Assembly (NCBI GenBank): GCA_902812505.1
Contig: CADDZQ010000005.1
Span: 1 to 48,577 of the forward strand
Direction of reading: 5' to 3'
DNA length: 48,577 nt
Origin: an archaeon
GTDB lineage: Archaea; Thermoproteota; Thermoprotei_A; Marsarchaeales; Marsarchaeaceae
The translations under genes and the position numbers were made by a program. Below, in pieces: positions 16,862 to 32,173 of this stretch (positions are counted from its first letter, which is position 1; each line of letters starts with the position of its first letter). The notes beneath the pieces are model-generated. The model saw only the letters and a program-made list of their open reading frames with translations, was not told the origin of the DNA and did not search any database.

Positions 16862-17436
16862 CTCTTCACCACCCCTACAAAGGATTCAAGTATATTTTGG
16901 CCGAACCTCGTGAGAACGGATTCTGGGTGAAACTGCACCCCGAATATGGGGTGACTCACGTGTTCTACACCCATTATCTCACCATCATCAGCGCTTACAG
17001 CATTGACTCTAAGGGGTACTCCTGATCCCACTTCACCCACTAAGGAGTGGTATCGCCCAACATAGAATCTACGTGGTAGACCCCTAAAAAGTGCGCCTCC
17101 CAAGTTAACTATCAGGCTCTTTTCTCCGTGTCTAACTACTCTTGCCTTCCTGATCTTACCACCGAAAACGTGTATGATTTCTTGATGACCCAAGCAAACC
17201 CCGAGAACAGGCTTCTCGCTGCCAAGCCGCCCAATAATGTATGGGCCAATACCAGTCCACCTACCATCCCTAGGGTCGCCTGGGCCGGGGGATATCACGA
17301 AGCCATCGTATACTCCAAGCGCCTCAATGGGTAGTTCATCATTCCTACACACTTCAACATCCACTCCAAGTGAACCCAATGCCTGATAGAGATTGTAGAC
17401 AAAGGAGTCGTAGTTGTCCACCAACAGCAGCCTCAA
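16858..17436 (-). CDS. trpG: Anthranilate synthase component II (glutamine amidotransferase)
   Basis: 192 residues, class I glutamine amidotransferase domain alone (not fused to TrpD). The nucleophile Cys81 is in GVCLGHQE, and the His-Glu of the triad in VQFHPESVL. ISPGPGDPRD is the oxyanion strand segment. It supplies ammonia to TrpE. TTG start in a TTGA overlap with the trpE stop, so coupling to trpE is expected. Confidence 0.95.
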   Translation of the reverse strand: MRLLLVDNYDSFVYNLYQALGSLGVDVEVCRNDELPIEALGVYDGFVISPGPGDPRDGRWTGIGPYIIGRLGSEKPVLGVCLGHQEIIHVFGGKIRKARVVRHGEKSLIVNLGGALFRGLPRRFYVGRYHSLVGEVGSGVPLRVNAVSADDGEIMGVEHVSHPIFGVQFHPESVLTRFGQNILESFVGVVKR

Positions 17437-19157
17437 AGCCTAGCCACCTCCCCACCACCGGCACCAAGAGCCTCAACGACAACCCTAGCCTTACTTTCGG
17501 TCTCATAGTACTCGGAGACAGGGTCTGATGCTGCAACTATTCCAGCCCCAGCCTGGACAACACACTGTGAGCCATGAGAGTAAAGGGACCTAATGTTTAT
17601 CGCCATATCCATGGTGTGTGCACCCATAAAGTAACCAACACTACCAGCGTAGGGTCCACGTGGCTCGCCTTCGAGTGAATCTATGAGCTCAACGGCCCTC
17701 ACTTTCGGGGCGCCGGAAACTGTCCCCGCGGGGAAAACCGCCGTGAAAACATCCACAGAATCAAACTCCTCTTGTAATTCACCAACAACCTTTGACACTA
17801 GGTGCTGAACATGACTATACTTCATTACCTTACGGTACGAGGTTACCCGAACACTGCCGAAACGTGAAACCTTACCCAAATCGTTCCTAGCCAAATCCAC
17901 TAGCATAACGTGCTCCGCCGCATCCTTAGCGCTCCTAAGTAACTCCCTCCTCAGAGATTGATCCAACTCGGGGTTACCTGTGACCTTCCTCGTACCGGCG
18001 ATTGGATAGGTCTCAACTCTGCGCCCGCTCACACGCACCAGTGTTTCAGGGGAGGAGCCAATTATTCGCCTCTCACCCATCTTAATATAATACATGTAAG
18101 GCGAGGGGTTCGTTTCTAGGAGCCTAATGAACACGCTCTTATATTCCCCCTCAAACGCTACACCTAGCTTCCGCGCCAAGACAACTTGGAACACCTCACC
18201 AGTAGCGATGTACTCCTTGGCCCGGTTGACCATATCCACATAGCCACCAATATCAGGTCGCTCATAAACAACCTTTCCCGCTCCACTGCCACGCGGTTTA
18301 TGGGAGCCAAGCTCGCCAATATTTCTCCAATCTGGGGGTCGACCCACAGCCCAGGCTTTATCCTCGTTGAGTACTCCCTCCTCAGAGATTGATCCAACTC
18401 GGGGTTACCTGTGACCTTCCTCGTACCGGCGATTGGATAGGTCTCAACTCTGCGCCCGCTCACACGCACCAGTGTTTCAGGGGAGGAGCCAATTATTCGC
18501 CTCTCACCCATCTTAATATAATACATGTAAGGCGAGGGGTTCGTTTCTAGGAGCCTAATGAACACGCTCTTATATTCCCCCTCAAACGCTACACCTAGCT
18601 TCCGCGCCAAGACAACTTGGAACACCTCACCAGTAGCGATGTACTCCTTGGCCCGGTTGACCATATCCACATAGCCACCAATATCAGGTCGCTCATAAAC
18701 AACCTTTCCCGCTCCACTGCCACGCGGTTTATGGGAGCCAAGCTCGCCAATATTTCTCCAATCTGGGGGTCGACCCACAGCCCAGGCTTTATCCTCGTTG
18801 AGTACTATGAAATCATCGAAGCCAAGATATTCTAGGTCGTGGAAAGGCTCGGGAGACCTGTATGGAACCTTCTCCCAGAGTGACATAGCGCTGAATGAGG
18901 TGTAACCCAATACCAAACCATGGGTCCGCAGAATACTTCGAAACTCTGATGCCACGCTTTCCCAGTCACGTCTACCCCCACTAACACTGTACATCGTTGC
19001 AGGGTTAACACCGCACACAACACGCCTACGCGAGCCGTTGGATACAATAATCAGACCGCCACTATACGCCGATTCAACCAAATCAACAAGGGAAGAGATC
19101 TTTGGATATGTCGACAGACGTTCCCTTATTAATCCAAACGCGACCGCCCTGCATCAT
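17433..19157 (-). pseudogene. trpE: Anthranilate synthase component I, disrupted by a 431-bp tandem duplication
   Basis: First gene of the trp operon. Removing one repeat unit gives a continuous protein of about 405 residues from TTG 19081, ending in the normal chorismate-binding domain (GERRIIGSSPETLVRV, YPIAGTRKVTG, LVDLARNDLGKVS, GAPKVRAVELID, YAGSVGYFMG). As read, the upstream part runs from 19081 to 18164 and the downstream part reads in another frame to 17433, because 431 is not a multiple of three. Protein-like sequence also extends upstream of TTG 19081 (for example RERLSTYPKISSLVDL), reaching ATGATG at 19157 if one G in the GGG at 19148-19150 is dropped. The rest of the operon is intact. 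Either a recent mutation or an assembly error. Confidence 0.85.
17942..18803. repeat. 431-bp perfect tandem duplication within trpE
   Basis: Bases 17942-18372 and 18373-18803 are the same 431-bp unit; I see no difference between them. The junction shares a 3-base ACT with both outer edges, which is microhomology typical of replication slippage or template switching. It breaks the trpE frame. Confidence 0.95.
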
Positions 19158-26377: not shown

Positions 26378-27003
26378 TTATCGTTGTGAATATTCGGTGT
26401 TTAGGAGGAGTGCGTATTCTTGGGGGGTGTTTACATTTTTAAGCGAGTTTAGGCCTGGGTCCACCGTCGTTAGCCTACTGGTTGGCACATAGGCCGCGTC
26501 TGGTAGTGTGGCTATCAGGTCTATTAGTCTAAATTTTCCCTCGTCGAGTACACGCCGTAAACCTAGCCTGACACTGGGCGTATGGTAGACTGCGCAGAGA
26601 GGCTCCAAAACCCCTGACGCATCCCACCTAGGCACAGCCGCGGAGTGGCCCAAACACGCACTGTAGAGGTACCCTATAAGCTCGGCTTTAATAAGCGGCA
26701 TATCGCACCCCACAAGGGCGAAGTAGGGTGTCTCAATATAGTCAACCGCTGCCACAAGCCCACTCAGCGGGGAACCAAGCTCTAGGGTGTACCCAACTAT
26801 CCTCACGGGGCCACCCGCCTCCCACACATACCCCTCTGGCCGTTTTGAGCCTACGTTATAAAAACTTGGTTTGTTAGGATCTTCAACTCTGAGACTATGC
26901 GTGACAAAAACGTTTCGCCGTTTAGCCGTAAGAAGGCTTTATTCACACCCATCCTAGTACTCTTCCCACCACAAGCGACTACAGCGGATAAACCCTGCTC
27001 CAT
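26378..27003 (-). CDS. mobA: Molybdopterin nucleotidyltransferase (MobA/MocA-like), frame broken
   Basis: ATG 27003 begins GLSAVVACGGKSTRMGVNKAF, the nucleotide-binding G-rich loop with the RMG and Lys of MobA/MocA enzymes. This frame stops at 26851, but the next frame continues without loss of similarity (GYTLELGSPLSGLVAAVDYI, then VGCDMPLIKAEL, the metal-binding Asp). The break is at a run of T and A near 26855-26862 (GTTTTTATAACG); adding one base restores about 208 residues. It would attach GMP or CMP to molybdopterin. CO dehydrogenases use the CMP form, so a MocA role is plausible, but the sequence does not decide. Last gene of the cox cluster. Confidence 0.75.
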
Positions 27004-27031: not shown

Positions 27032-27960
27032 CTAGGAGTTCGACTCTGGGGAGTATCTTTGGGGGTTTGATTCGAAAACCCTCTTGCATTGCTCTGAGCA
27101 GAAGACGGTCCTCTTACCTTCGATGATTGTAAAGTGTGGGCTGAGGGGTTCGACGAGCATTCCGCACACAGGGTCAACGAAGAGGTCGGATGAATGTGTT
27201 GCGGGTTGGGAAGCCACCAAGCCAGTGCTGATTTGGGTGTTCGAGTATTTCACCGCCTCAGCCATGATGCTGAGTGCTATCTCGCTGAGTGTGCGGGCGC
27301 CGATATCAATACCTGCGGGCGACCTGACACGCTCCACGAGCTCCACCGGTATCCGTCTGGCTAAAAGCCATTTTTTATTGCTTCCGCCCTCTTCTTACCC
27401 GCTACAACACCAATGTAGAGTGGTCTTACACGCAGTATCTTCTCCACGAATAGTTGGTCATCTGAGCCCATGGTTGCTACAAGAGCGTAGAGGTTCTCGG
27501 GGCGCACCGAGCGCAGGAAGCCGCCGAGCCTATCCAAAGCCTCAGCCTTATCACTGGGGGTGACACTCAAGTGGGTTACATGGAAGCCCACCACCCTCGC
27601 TATTTCTGTGATGGATGCGATGAGCTCTGAATGCTCACCCACGACTAAAAGCTTCCTGCGTTCACCGAACGGTTCAATGAGTACCTCCACCACCCCACCT
27701 TGACAAGTCTCGAGTGAATGCACAAACTGCCCTCCGTCTCCAGCCATAATGCGCACACACAGGTCGACTATCTCACGCGTCGTACACGAGCCGCCGAGCC
27801 AGCCATGGGTTGAGCCATCCCCCTCCACGATGGCTTTGGAGCCAGCTTTGAGTGCGGAGGGGCTCCTCGCTGAGAGCACAGTCACTAGTGCAAACCTTTT
27901 CCCAGCCCTGAGCAACTCAAGCTGAGTCTGTAGGAGTTCGGCGTAGTCGCTCAAGCCCAA
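27032..27960 (-). CDS. XdhC/CoxF-family protein fused to a YHS domain, frame broken
   Basis: Starts ATG 27960. N-terminal XdhC domain (GSTHGWLGGSCTTREIVDL) and a Rossmann domain (KLLVVGEHSELIASIT), then a break: the frame stops at 27361, while the next frame carries the rest of the XdhC C-terminus (ERVRSPAGIDIGARTLSEI). One more T in the TTTT near 27365 joins them. A C-terminal YHS domain follows (VDPVCGMLVEPL, then VFCSEQCKRVFESNPQRY), the cysteine-containing metal-binding type found in copper ATPases. XdhC proteins bind molybdenum cofactor and help sulfuration; the YHS part may supply copper for the Mo-Cu site (inference). Confidence 0.75.
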
Positions 27961-27963
27961 CGC

Positions 27964-28401
27964 CTACCTCAACCTTTGGCTCAGACACTCGAAAAACTGT
28001 TTTATTATCTTCTCCGCTTGGGAGCTTATCATACCCTGAGCCATGGATGCCACCCTCCCCACCACCTTTGTGTCCGCCACCCAGCTTAGGGTTGAACCGC
28101 CTGTGGATAAATCCTCTAATTGGACTATTATGGATATGTCGACACCGCTCCCAAGCCCTGAGCCGTGTACAGCGTAACCCAGGTTTGTGTGGGGGGACCT
28201 TTGAGTCACATTGAAACGCAGGTTAAAGTCTCCTCTGATGAAGCCTATGCCAGCCCTAACAGTGGCCAATGCTTCATCCTCTGATTTAATATCTAGGCTC
28301 TTCAGATCTGGAATACACTCTGATACGCGCCTTAAATCTGATATATAGGAGTAGACCTCTGAGCTCGACTTCGGGAACTGATAGCTACCTTCAAACTTCA
28401 A
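27964..28401 (-). CDS. coxG: CoxG-like SRPBCC protein
   Basis: 145 residues, one SRPBCC/START-fold domain: MKFEGSYQFPKSSSEVYSYI at the N-terminus, the ECIPDLKSLDI strand turn that matches CoxG proteins (usually CIPG), and a C-terminal helix (SSQAEKIIKQFFECLSQRL). In Oligotropha-type bacteria CoxG anchors CO dehydrogenase to the membrane; no membrane segment is visible here. It lies 15 bases after coxL and three before xdhC. Confidence 0.85.
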   Translation of the reverse strand: MKFEGSYQFPKSSSEVYSYISDLRRVSECIPDLKSLDIKSEDEALATVRAGIGFIRGDFNLRFNVTQRSPHTNLGYAVHGSGLGSGVDISIIVQLEDLSTGGSTLSWVADTKVVGRVASMAQGMISSQAEKIIKQFFECLSQRLR

Positions 28402-28416
28402 GGTCTAACCCCCACA

Positions 28417-30765
28417 CTACTTATCCAACGCATAACCCTTCTCCTCCAGGAGCCTGCGTATCTTCCAAGGATAAAGCGGCATGTCTATGTGGGTTACCCC
28501 AAGCGGCCAAAGAGCGTCGACAACCGCGTTGACGAACGCAGCTGGTGATCCAACGGTGGCGGATTCACCAACACCCTTGGCACCCAATAGGTGGTGGGGT
28601 GATGGGGTGACGGTTTTATCTGTTTCCCACTTGGGTGTCTCCACAGCTGTAGGTATAGTGTAATCCATGAAGTTAGCGCCGTAGATGTTACCATCTTGGT
28701 CGTAGCTAATCTCCTCCATGAAGGCTGTGCCGAAGCCCATTGTGAGCCCTCCGTGTATCTGCCCGTCAACTATGAGTGGGTTTATTATGTTACCGCAGTC
28801 GTCGACGGCGACGAACCTTCTAACCTTAGCTTCACCTGTACCCCTATCTATGTCTACAACGCAGATATAGCTTCCGAAGGGGAACGTCATGTTGGGTGGA
28901 TCATAGTAATGAACAGCCTCCAACCCCGCCTCCATGCCCGGCGGATGATTCGTGTATGCGGCGAAGGCCACTTCTTGAATGGTCTTATACTTGGCGGGTG
29001 CACCCTTAACATAGAATCTGCCACGCTCCCATACCACGTCCTCCTCCCTAGCCTCCAAGAGGTGGGCGGCTATTTTCTTCGCCTTCTCACGGATTTTACG
29101 TGATCCCACAGCCGCGGCAGCGCCGGCGGTGGGGGTGCTTGGACTCGCATAGGTTCCAAGGCCATAGGGCGCGGTGTCCGTGTCCCCCTCCTCAACAGTT
29201 ATATCTTCGATGGGTATACCCAACTCCTGAGCGATTATTTGGGCATAAGTCGTCTCATGCCCCTGGCCCTGAGACCTAGTCCCAAAACGGGCGATAACCT
29301 TACCCGTGGGGTGAATCCTTATCTCGGCGCTGTCGAACATCTTGATGCCTAAGATGTCGAATGTGTGGGAGGGGCCTGCGCCAACTATCTCCGTGAAGCT
29401 ACTTATACCTATACCCATGAGTTCGCCCCGCTTCCTCTTCTCTTCCTGCTCTTTACGTAGCTCTTCATAGCCTATCATCTCCATCGCCTTCCTGAGCGCG
29501 CCAGCGTAGTTGCCGCTATCGTAAACCCAACCCATCACCGACCTGTAGGGGAACTTCTCTGGCGGAATAAAGTTCTTGAGCCTTAGCTCAGCTGGGTCGA
29601 TTCCAAGTCTGTGGGCCATTATATCCACCAGCCTCTCTATGGCGTACACGGCCTCCGTGACGCGGAAGGAGCACCTGTATGCTATGCCCCCCTGCGGCTT
29701 GTTGGTGTAAGCTCCATCCACTTCAACAAACGCCGCTTTAAGGTCATATGACCCAGTGCATATGCTGAAGAGGCCGAGCGGGAATTTTGATGGGTTGGCA
29801 TCACCGAAGAAGACACCATGATCGCTCACCGCCTTAACCCTGAAGGCTAGCAAAGTCCGATCCCTCTTTGCTGCGAGCTTAGCCCTCATATGGAAGTCCC
29901 TTGCGAAAGCGGTGCTGGGGTGGTCATCCGAGCGATCGTTGACCCACTTTACAGGTCTACCAGTAACGATTGAGGCTACAGCGGCCACAATGTAGCCGGG
30001 GTAAACATACACCTTGCCGCCGAAGCCACCACCGATGTCGGGGGATATTATCCTGATTTTGTTTTCAGGGATCTTCGTGATAAGCGAAGACATCGTCCTC
30101 ACAACGTGCGGTGCCTGCGTGGTCATCCAAATAGTGAGTGTCCCCTTTACGCTATCATAGTAGGCAACGCATCCGCATGGCTCCATGTAAGACACGTGTA
30201 TCCTCTGATAATACATGTCTTGACCCACAACTGCATCTGCTTGCTCGAACAACCTATCTGTAGCCTCTCTGTCACCAGCCTCCCAGTGGAAGACGTGGTT
30301 GGTGCGCTTATCCTCTCTAACTATGGGTGAACCCTCCTCGAGCGCCTTTTTGGGGTCGGTGACCACTGGAAGCGGCTCGTAGTCAACCTCGACGAGTTTG
30401 ACGGCGTCAGCCGCAGCATACCTGCTCTCAGCCACAACACCCACCACCTCCTGCATTTGGAAGACCACCTTCTCGGTGGGGAGCACCATCATTTTATCAC
30501 CGTTGAGTGTGGGTATCCAGTCCAAGCCGAGTGGTTGCAGGTCTTTGCCGGTGATAACGGCTACCACACCGGGCGCACCCTTAGCCTTCTCAGTGCTTAT
30601 ACTCCTAAGCTTCGCGTGCGCGCAGGGACTCCTAACAAAGTCTAAATAAACCATCCCAGGTAGGCTGATATCATCAACATATGTACCCCTACCTTGAATA
30701 AAGCGCACATCCTCCTTTCTCTTGACTGCGCTACCCATCCCATGTATGACTGGCACCTCTGTCAC
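28417..30765 (-). CDS. coxL: Aerobic CO dehydrogenase large subunit, form I
   Basis: 782 residues, molybdenum hydroxylase. The active-site loop IAYRCSFRVTEA at about 361-372 is the form I signature AYxCSFR; Cys365 would bridge Mo and Cu through sulfur as in Oligotropha CoxL. DIGGGFGGKVYVYPGY (about 243-258), TRSQGQGHETTYAQI and the catalytic Glu in GAKGVGESATVGSP near the C-terminus agree. It oxidises CO to CO2, passing electrons through CoxS and CoxM. The stop is followed by coxG after 15 bases; coxS lies two bases upstream. Form I membership separates it from form II and aldehyde oxidases, in which this loop differs. Confidence 0.96.
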   Translation of the reverse strand: MTEVPVIHGMGSAVKRKEDVRFIQGRGTYVDDISLPGMVYLDFVRSPCAHAKLRSISTEKAKGAPGVVAVITGKDLQPLGLDWIPTLNGDKMMVLPTEKVVFQMQEVVGVVAESRYAAADAVKLVEVDYEPLPVVTDPKKALEEGSPIVREDKRTNHVFHWEAGDREATDRLFEQADAVVGQDMYYQRIHVSYMEPCGCVAYYDSVKGTLTIWMTTQAPHVVRTMSSLITKIPENKIRIISPDIGGGFGGKVYVYPGYIVAAVASIVTGRPVKWVNDRSDDHPSTAFARDFHMRAKLAAKRDRTLLAFRVKAVSDHGVFFGDANPSKFPLGLFSICTGSYDLKAAFVEVDGAYTNKPQGGIAYRCSFRVTEAVYAIERLVDIMAHRLGIDPAELRLKNFIPPEKFPYRSVMGWVYDSGNYAGALRKAMEMIGYEELRKEQEEKRKRGELMGIGISSFTEIVGAGPSHTFDILGIKMFDSAEIRIHPTGKVIARFGTRSQGQGHETTYAQIIAQELGIPIEDITVEEGDTDTAPYGLGTYASPSTPTAGAAAAVGSRKIREKAKKIAAHLLEAREEDVVWERGRFYVKGAPAKYKTIQEVAFAAYTNHPPGMEAGLEAVHYYDPPNMTFPFGSYICVVDIDRGTGEAKVRRFVAVDDCGNIINPLIVDGQIHGGLTMGFGTAFMEEISYDQDGNIYGANFMDYTIPTAVETPKWETDKTVTPSPHHLLGAKGVGESATVGSPAAFVNAVVDALWPLGVTHIDMPLYPWKIRRLLEEKGYALDK

Positions 30766-30767
30766 AC

Positions 30768-31292
30768 CTAGTCACCTCCGCTTCTCCATGAGGGGTCTGA
30801 GCGAAGCTTCTGCGCTGCATAGTGGATGGCTTCAACTATCTTCACATACCCAGTGCACCTGCAGAGGTTACCCGAGATACCCCTCCTAATCTCCTCCTCT
30901 GTGGGGTTAGGGTTCTTCTGTAGCAGGTCGTAGGCAGCCATCATCATGCCAGGCGTGCAATACCCACACTGGAGGCCATGCTTCTCCCAGAATCCTTCCT
31001 GAATGGGGTGGAGCCTACCCTTCCTTGCGAGTCCCTCCACTGTTAGCAGGCTTCCCCCGTTCGCCTGCACTGCGAAAACCGTGCACGATTTAACCGCCCT
31101 ACCATTAAGCACAACCGTGCAGGCACCGCAGTTGGACGTGTCACAGCCAACATGGGTGCCGGTTAGACCGAGCACTTCTCTAATAAAGTGTACTAGGAGC
31201 ATCCTCGTCTCAGCCTCCCCGACCCTCCTCTCACCGTTCACGGTGAGCTCTAAACCCACCTTAGCGTCGGCTGGGTAGATAAGCGCGGTCAC
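30768..31292 (-). CDS. coxS: CO dehydrogenase small subunit, two [2Fe-2S] clusters
   Basis: 174 residues. N-terminal ferredoxin-type cluster: [22 protein letters not shown] (read in two parts: [10 protein letters not shown], then AVKSC). C-terminal helical cluster: [15 protein letters not shown] and [15 protein letters not shown]. It carries electrons from the Mo-Cu site to the FAD of CoxM. Start GTG 31292 shares its G with the coxM stop (TAGTG), so translation is coupled. Confidence 0.96.
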
Positions 31293-32173
31293 TATAGGCC
31301 ACCCCTAGCCCTCTTGTAGGCCAAGTTCAAAGCCCTATGGGTGAGCACCTTGACCATCGCTTTTTTATATTCAGCTGGGCCACGGATGTCTGAAAGTGAG
31401 TTACTGGCGTTCATCGCCAGCGTTGAAGCCTTATCTAGGACTTCTTTATCAGAGAGGCTTTTTCTAACAAGCCACTACTCGGCTTCACTGGCTTTAATGG
31501 GCTTCGTTGAAGCAGCTGTGAGACCTATCCCAACACTCCTACACACCCCATCACCGTCGACCTCCAACTGCGCCGCCACTCCAATTATAGCGTAGTCGCC
31601 CACCCGACGTTCAAGTTTGAGGTACGCACCACCGCATCCACGCCTATTCTTTGGGATGCGGACCTCGGTGTGCAGTTCGTCGGATGCTAGAAGTGTTGTG
31701 AATCTATCCACAAAGAAGTCCTTTGCAGCTAAAACCCTCTGACCGCTTGGGCCGCTAGCAACCATCTCCGCATTCATGGCTAGGCAAACCGCTGGCAAGT
31801 CGTTACCCATATCCGCATGGCAAACGTTACCGCCGAATGTGCCAAGATTCCTAACAAGTGGGTCAGCTATCTGTAGCGCCGCATCGTGTATAAGTGGGTA
31901 ATCCTTGGCTATCAGCTCAGAGTCGCAAAGTCTTGATATCCTAGTAAGAGTGCCTATTTTCAGCCACTCTCCAGAGTCGTCCAAGTAGTCTAAGTTGGGG
32001 ATGCGATTTATATCTACGAGGCTTTTGGGAGACGCGTAGCCTAGCTTCATAAACGGTATGAGGCTTTGGCCGCCGGCTAGAACCTTGGAGTCCTCTAGTG
32101 TATGGAGGAGCTCCACAGCCTCCTCCACACTGTGTGCAACCGTATAGGAAAATCTATCGGGAATCACAAACAA
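31292..32173 (-). CDS. coxM: CO dehydrogenase medium (FAD) subunit with in-frame TAG
   Basis: About 293 codons from TTG 32173 (GTG 32167 also possible). FAD-binding motifs [14 protein letters not shown] and [19 protein letters not shown] are intact (both typical of CoxM), then [15 protein letters not shown]. At codon 233 (31475-31477) a TAG interrupts the frame; the following 60 codons in the same frame read as the normal C-terminus ([17 protein letters not shown], then [16 protein letters not shown]) to TAG at 31292-31294. A single GAG-to-TAG change would explain it. First gene of the operon. Confidence 0.85.

Follow-up and report, generated by a model that had tools for sequence, protein, structure and literature searches.

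An XdhC-YHS fusion in the coxF position of form I carbon monoxide dehydrogenase clusters, a candidate copper donor to the Mo-S-Cu site

The closest described relatives of the gene considered here come from a few well-separated systems. In Oligotropha (Afipia) carboxidovorans, the carbon monoxide (CO) dehydrogenase of a coxF mutant was reported to contain 0.043 mol of Cu per mol, compared to 1.47, together with 1.85 mol of Mo and 1.40 mol of S per mol, and to be largely restored by the addition of sulfide and copper, from which its authors proposed that CoxF brings copper (PMC4240915). The CoxE and CoxF proteins are described there as interdependent, so each of the two mutants is without both (PMC4240915). 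In an earlier review, CoxF was grouped near XdhC proteins encoded in other CO dehydrogenase operons, and the neighbor of CoxI was PaoD (PMC2997495). Acidianus brierleyi, which oxidizes atmospheric CO, has an operon printed as coxEDLSMF (PMC11018855). In a different setting, residues D178, C181, C204, and C208 of the YHS domain of a Mycobacterium phlei adenylyl cyclase have been proposed as copper ligands, and 1 to 10 µM Cu2+ gives activity with Mg2+, while six other metal ions give none (PMC4626032). Here we describe a gene from a stretch of 48,577 nucleotides of a genome of the archaeal family Marsarchaeaceae (contig CADDZQ010000005.1; “the window”), in which XdhC domains and a C-terminal YHS domain are found next to a form I CO dehydrogenase. 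By homology and position it is coxF, and it belongs to a family of XdhC-YHS fusions whose YHS domain is a candidate copper donor.

A first-pass annotation had described this gene as one XdhC-YHS protein at 27032 to 27960; both domains are present, but they lie in two frames. The XdhC N-terminal domain (XdhC_CoxI, 50.1 bits, cut-off 24.3) and the larger part of the XdhC Rossmann domain occupy an open reading frame (ORF) of 199 amino acids on the minus strand (27361..27960), with a TTG start and a TAG end that results from a frameshift. The end of the Rossmann domain, a linker, and the YHS domain (PF04945, 37.2 bits, cut-off 30.3) occupy a second ORF of 104 amino acids in the other frame (27032..27346, minus strand), and the match to the XdhC_C profile is split into two pieces across the two ORFs. 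In a genome of the same genus (G001), with about 97% DNA identity to the window, the XdhC-YHS protein is encoded by one uninterrupted gene of 309 amino acids, and XdhC_CoxI, XdhC_C, and YHS all score above their cut-offs. Base-by-base alignment shows that the window gene is one A short, with a run of six A (27371..27376, minus strand; T on the plus strand) where the intact gene has seven, and we conclude that the lineage does have the fusion and that the gene is disrupted in the present assembly. A programmed frameshift at the A run (an A-AAA-AAT site) was rejected, since G001 has the extra A and an intact frame.

The identity of the gene emerges from a tree of 142 XdhC domains from which the YHS part had been removed, and in which the G001 copy (L023) stands for the window, the split copy being left out. 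The tree splits into branches of 80 and 62 rows with a Shimodaira-Hasegawa-like approximate likelihood ratio test (SH-aLRT) value of 99. The 80-row branch contains every one of the 52 fused rows together with O. carboxidovorans CoxF (L145) and 16 relatives of that protein; near its base sit a few XdhC proteins from archaea and bacteria and one form II neighbor (L025). The 62-row branch holds all 10 of the XdhC proteins found beside other molybdenum hydroxylases and 7 of the 8 form II neighbors, along with some second XdhC proteins of form I clusters; none of its 62 members has a YHS domain, an MxCxxC tail, or at least two tail cysteines. The G001 copy falls on the side of Oligotropha CoxF, apart from XdhC proteins of the CoxI/PaoD type, which share the XdhC domains but belong to the other branch. 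Rows of the CoxF branch tend to have C-x-S-G-G and the others C-G-G, as judged by a rough regular expression and an alignment that is gappy in the other branch. Moreover, the cluster order in two Thermoproteota genomes (G026 and G405) matches the coxEDLSMF of A. brierleyi, with XdhC-YHS in the coxF place. From its place in the CoxF branch and in this gene order, the window gene is, as far as sequence can assign it, the coxF of a form I CO dehydrogenase cluster. Neither this identity with a known gene nor the frameshift was part of the first-pass annotation.

Compared to these known genes, the window coxF has a distinct make-up and setting. Oligotropha CoxF, encoded on pHCG3, has the XdhC_CoxI and XdhC_C domains, the form I cox cluster, and the tree branch in common with it, but is 280 amino acids long, has neither a YHS domain nor a cysteine tail, and is encoded after coxD-coxE, whereas the window gene follows coxG. 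For A. brierleyi, the passages of the report that give the operon make no mention of a YHS domain (PMC11018855). The megaplasmid of Thermomicrobium roseum DSM 5159 encodes an XdhC-YHS protein directly after a form I coxL that is 66.5% identical to the coxL of the window, but with no coxG between the two, no MobA directly downstream, and a nucleotidyltransferase upstream of coxM.

The XdhC-YHS fusions form a family. When a profile made from two fusions was run over 398 Thermoproteota genomes, G026 and G405 were matched across the XdhC and YHS parts and the window in two pieces; among the matches listed, no other spans these two parts, and G144 is a fourth Thermoproteota genome with a fusion. 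These four fusion holders are also the 4 of the 398 genomes with a CoxL of >70% identity (72% or more) to that of the window, the remaining CoxL proteins among the matches listed having 46 to 49%. A species-genome collection was scanned with four fusions and the best 80 of 507 relatives were taken, from Rokubacteria, Acidobacteria, Chloroflexi, Gemmatimonadota, Verrucomicrobia, Actinobacteria, Thermoplasmata, and other groups; 28 of these 80 loci carry a YHS domain. Every YHS hit in these 80 loci lies in the XdhC ORF, and no separate YHS gene was found in them near a YHS-less CoxF. The 80 loci were chosen by likeness to the fusion; a set of 119 Actinomycetota genomes was chosen regardless of CO dehydrogenase or neighbors, and 24 of them have the fusion, with E-values of <1e-87, the next matches being a fragment cut by a contig end (G428, 5e-53) and then none better than 1e-30. 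Among 199 Acidobacteriota genomes, three matches extend through the YHS part, and among 398 Pseudomonadota genomes there is a CoxF-like match in 20, with the YHS domain confirmed in one (G1329).

Pairing with CoxL was scored in 131 annotated loci (the 80 species-genome loci, 40 Actinomycetota regions with 24 fused and 16 unfused XdhC, and 11 others), taking as partner the nearest CoxL within 8 kb of the XdhC ORF. They contain 59 fused ORFs, 58 of them distinct (L193 and L077 are from one genome). The nearest CoxL is form I in 46 of 46 distinct readable loci, the other distinct loci having a CoxL fragment (six) or no CoxL in the stretch (six). The 101 unfused XdhC ORFs are distributed over form I (43), form II (12), other molybdenum hydroxylases (10), fragments (5), and no partner (31). 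Two later fused regions (L226 and L231) are both beside a form I CoxL; a third (L230) has no CoxL in the region, and its YHS sequence looks identical to that of L070. The Actinomycetota alone give 20 of 20 form I among fusions with a readable CoxL (24 fused in all), and 24 of the 119 genomes encode a CoxL that is 52% or more identical to that of the window, 23 of them also being fusion genomes; the two mismatches are contig ends, with a CoxL fragment in G514 and a cut XdhC in G428. The co-occurrence with form I coxL that had been anticipated for XdhC-YHS proteins is thus borne out, and the opposite picture, in which they lie mostly beside xanthine dehydrogenases, did not arise.

Two variants of the fusion were seen along the way. 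A plasmid of Deinococcus sp. AJ005 (L147, 10607-11668) has a degenerate XdhC-YHS gene in a form I cluster that also encodes CoxD and CoxE, and four members of one Thermoproteota family (f26; L034, L036, L037, and L064) have an XdhC that ends in NPVC or GPVC where a YHS domain (DPVCGM) would start.

The YHS domain of the window (27050..27178, minus strand) has the cysteine motifs VDPVCGM and FCSEQC, just as first annotated, in a D-x2-C ... C-x3-C pattern. In the YHS alignment whose first row is the window, the putative ligands are D13, C16, C38, and C42. Of the 59 segments aligned, which were drawn from 58 fused proteins, 57, 58, 58, and 59, respectively, have these residues at this one spacing, with Deinococcus L147 as an exception. 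The M. phlei cyclase domain has the same spacing and the same C-terminal position, but it is fused to a cyclase and has been proposed to be a sensor (PMC4626032). Confident AlphaFold models were obtained for the full-length relative L065 (mean predicted local distance difference test [pLDDT] score of 88.3; predicted template modeling [pTM] score of 0.69) and for the window YHS domain (mean pLDDT of 85.5). Foldseek gave no hit for the YHS domain at an E-value of 0.001 or better, and VIA-align aligned it with toluene monooxygenase (Z of 6.0; root mean square deviation of 3.4 over 55 aligned positions), a match the tool grades as middling; neither program yielded a copper-specific fold match. Neither the sequence nor the fold of the YHS domain names the metal, and it is by analogy with the cyclase that the YHS domain of CoxF would bind copper.

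A further pointer to copper is found in relatives that have other domains in the place of YHS. The Rhodothermales protein L082, in the CoxF branch and without YHS, has a C-terminal HMA domain (31.4 bits, cut-off 24.8) and likewise lies in a cox cluster with AYRCSFR. An XdhC match combined with an HMA match occurs in 6 of 277 genomes of its phylum, its own counted, and the five other regions (L221 to L225) have the order coxM-S-L(AYRCSFR)-D-E-XdhC-HMA, with XdhC-HMA directly after coxE, HMA above cut-off in all five, and coxG found in four. The HMA motif of these CoxF proteins is of the GMSCAHC type, and the closest solved relatives of the L222 domain are ATP7B, bacterial CopA, and CopZ. Elsewhere in the CoxF branch there are cysteine-rich tails, with ECCHHGG in L101 (7998-8786), HCCG in L116 (8004-8750), and repeated SCC in L144 (7107-8987), and a CoxF outside the tree ends similarly with SSSSCCRDSD (L229, 8310-9215). 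That two unrelated metal-carrier domains sit at one end of one protein is hard to explain otherwise than by copper, and we regard the HMA swap as the strongest independent hint for that metal. The copper role suggested in the first-pass annotation gains support from the Oligotropha coxF mutant, the M. phlei cyclase YHS domain, and the HMA-bearing relatives.

The gain and loss of the YHS domain were followed in a more careful tree, built from the 80 rows of the branch and 8 others, whose near-root support labels may have shifted on re-rooting and are not relied on. The Oligotropha group of 17 falls among fused rows. A topology with the fused genes as one clade (single gain, no loss), the constrained group having been defined by the trait before tree building, was rejected by the approximately unbiased (AU) test (p-AU of 9.5e-33), and parsimony gives five changes of fusion state in the 80-row branch, with L078 scored as unfused though cut by a contig end. 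Because the single clade is rejected and five changes are counted, loss of YHS in the alphaproteobacterial line that includes Oligotropha is the simplest reading, and there may have been several gains.

Taken together, these observations make it likely, in our view, that CoxF proteins with a YHS domain bind Cu(I) there and pass copper to the Mo-S-Cu site of CO dehydrogenase. The YHS domain would bind Cu(I) through one aspartate and three cysteines; the XdhC module would sit at CO dehydrogenase, at the Mo-bound sulfur of the sulfurated site; and copper would move from YHS to the AYRCSFR loop cysteine, with CoxD (sulfuration) and CoxE acting alongside, as in Oligotropha. We infer from the features described above that YHS binds copper here and is the donor, and likewise the direction of transfer. 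We also lean, with somewhat less assurance, toward a more general scheme in which CoxF would be a modular copper-delivery factor, with XdhC for docking and an interchangeable YHS, HMA, or CC-rich carrier, the carrier having been lost in Oligotropha. On the modular scheme, the copper site of Oligotropha CoxF would have stayed unclear because that protein lost its carrier module. Alphaproteobacterial CoxF proteins mostly have neither YHS nor HMA, and so the carrier module would be helpful rather than essential.

Several points weigh against copper donation by YHS. The only CoxF studied at the bench, that of Oligotropha, has no YHS domain, and so the domain is not required for copper insertion as such. 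The site suspected of binding copper, M107CPSHGTM, was put in the XdhC part and not at the C terminus (PMC4240915). The solved relatives of the domain are subunits of toluene, phenol, and methane hydroxylases and L24e, and the nearest of these folds (phenol and toluene hydroxylases and L24e) do not belong to copper proteins. In the degenerate L147, at least the first cysteine of the YHS domain is gone (the motif reads SPVDGEE), yet the gene remains in a form I cluster. The 46 of 46 pairing largely reflects one inheritance rather than 46 independent events, and the coxF copy of the window itself is frameshifted.

Some of these points suit an alternative that we think unlikely, namely, that the YHS domain is structural or zinc binding and stabilizes CoxF or docks a partner, with the XdhC part (e.g., the CxSGG cysteine) carrying the copper. 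The kinship of YHS with toluene/phenol hydroxylase domains and ribosomal L24e fits it, as does the fact that alphaproteobacterial CoxF proteins manage without YHS. The cysteine of the site proposed in PMC4240915 (MCPSHG; L145, 12526-13368) is likewise a cysteine in 71 of the 80 CoxF-branch rows. What this alternative does not predict is that six genomes have an HMA domain resembling CopZ and Cu-ATPases at that position, or that CC-rich tails occur elsewhere. At the MCPSHG cysteine position, G001 has phenylalanine and the window has cysteine. It is decidedly improbable that YHS instead senses copper and activates CoxF when the metal is available, without itself donating it, as might be supposed from the M. 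phlei cyclase, where YHS is a Cu2+-dependent switch (PMC4626032); a CopZ-like carrier domain swapped into the same position fits a carrier better. Least credible of all is a relay of sulfur, as persulfide, from the YHS cysteines to the Mo site in place of copper. Cysteines are able to carry persulfides, but to our knowledge HMA is not a sulfur carrier. XdhC proteins have indeed been linked with Mo sulfuration, but the enzyme of the coxF mutant retains sulfur and is without Cu (PMC4240915).

The further idea that the fusion replaces CoxD and CoxE finds no support, since both are encoded elsewhere in the genome and adjoin many fusions. CoxE and CoxD lie side by side on another contig in G000 (C25) and in G001 (C44), and on contig C1 of G144, about 160 kb from the fusion; no CoxL was found in these three stretches. 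In G026, G405, and many bacterial fusion loci, CoxD and CoxE are within the cluster. For T. roseum, in a search of the megaplasmid alone, no CoxD turned up and CoxE scored only below cut-off.

CoxF and its copper role are already published, and public records list XdhC-YHS proteins under the name “XdhC family protein.” No open-licence PubMed Central (PMC) paper was found that connects YHS with either XdhC or carbon monoxide dehydrogenase, nor did CoxF with HMA appear in titles or abstracts among the open-licence PMC matches listed for CoxF, HMA, CopZ, and XdhC. The YHS or HMA domain of CoxF offers a small, expressible candidate copper donor with named ligands, one that work on Oligotropha alone would have missed. 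It also offers a genomic marker, in that an XdhC with a YHS or HMA tail indicates the copper-containing form I enzyme rather than a form II enzyme or a xanthine dehydrogenase.

In the window, the neighbors of coxF are all on the minus strand, with coxG, coxL, coxS, and coxM upstream and a MobA-like gene downstream. The coxG gene (27964..28401) was recognized by a Pfam match on the G001 copy. The product of coxL (28417..30765) has 782 amino acids and the loop AYRCSFR, which corresponds to the form I signature AYXCSFR, and coxS (30768..31292) encodes 174 amino acids. The coxM gene (31282..32173) has, following codon 232, a TAG in frame at a position that reads TCG in G001, as well as one extra codon, leaving a shortened ORF at 31475-32173; the CoxM frame is thus interrupted, so the set of M, S, and L is intact in G001 and not in the window. 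The MobA-like nucleotidyltransferase gene (26378..27003; NTP_transf_3 in G001) lacks one base near position 26854. Of the six genes of the cox cluster, three (coxF, coxM, and the MobA-like gene) are therefore broken in the window assembly, whereas the G001 cluster has the same order with every gene intact; this may reflect either assembly error or a decaying cluster. CoxL, CoxS, CoxG, a transporter, an HD protein, CysS, and a GNAT protein align codon by codon between the window and G001 without a frameshift. Outside the cluster, trpE (17433-19081, minus strand) is split into two overlapping ORFs, and about 430 bases at its junction near 18373 are present twice in the window and once in G001.
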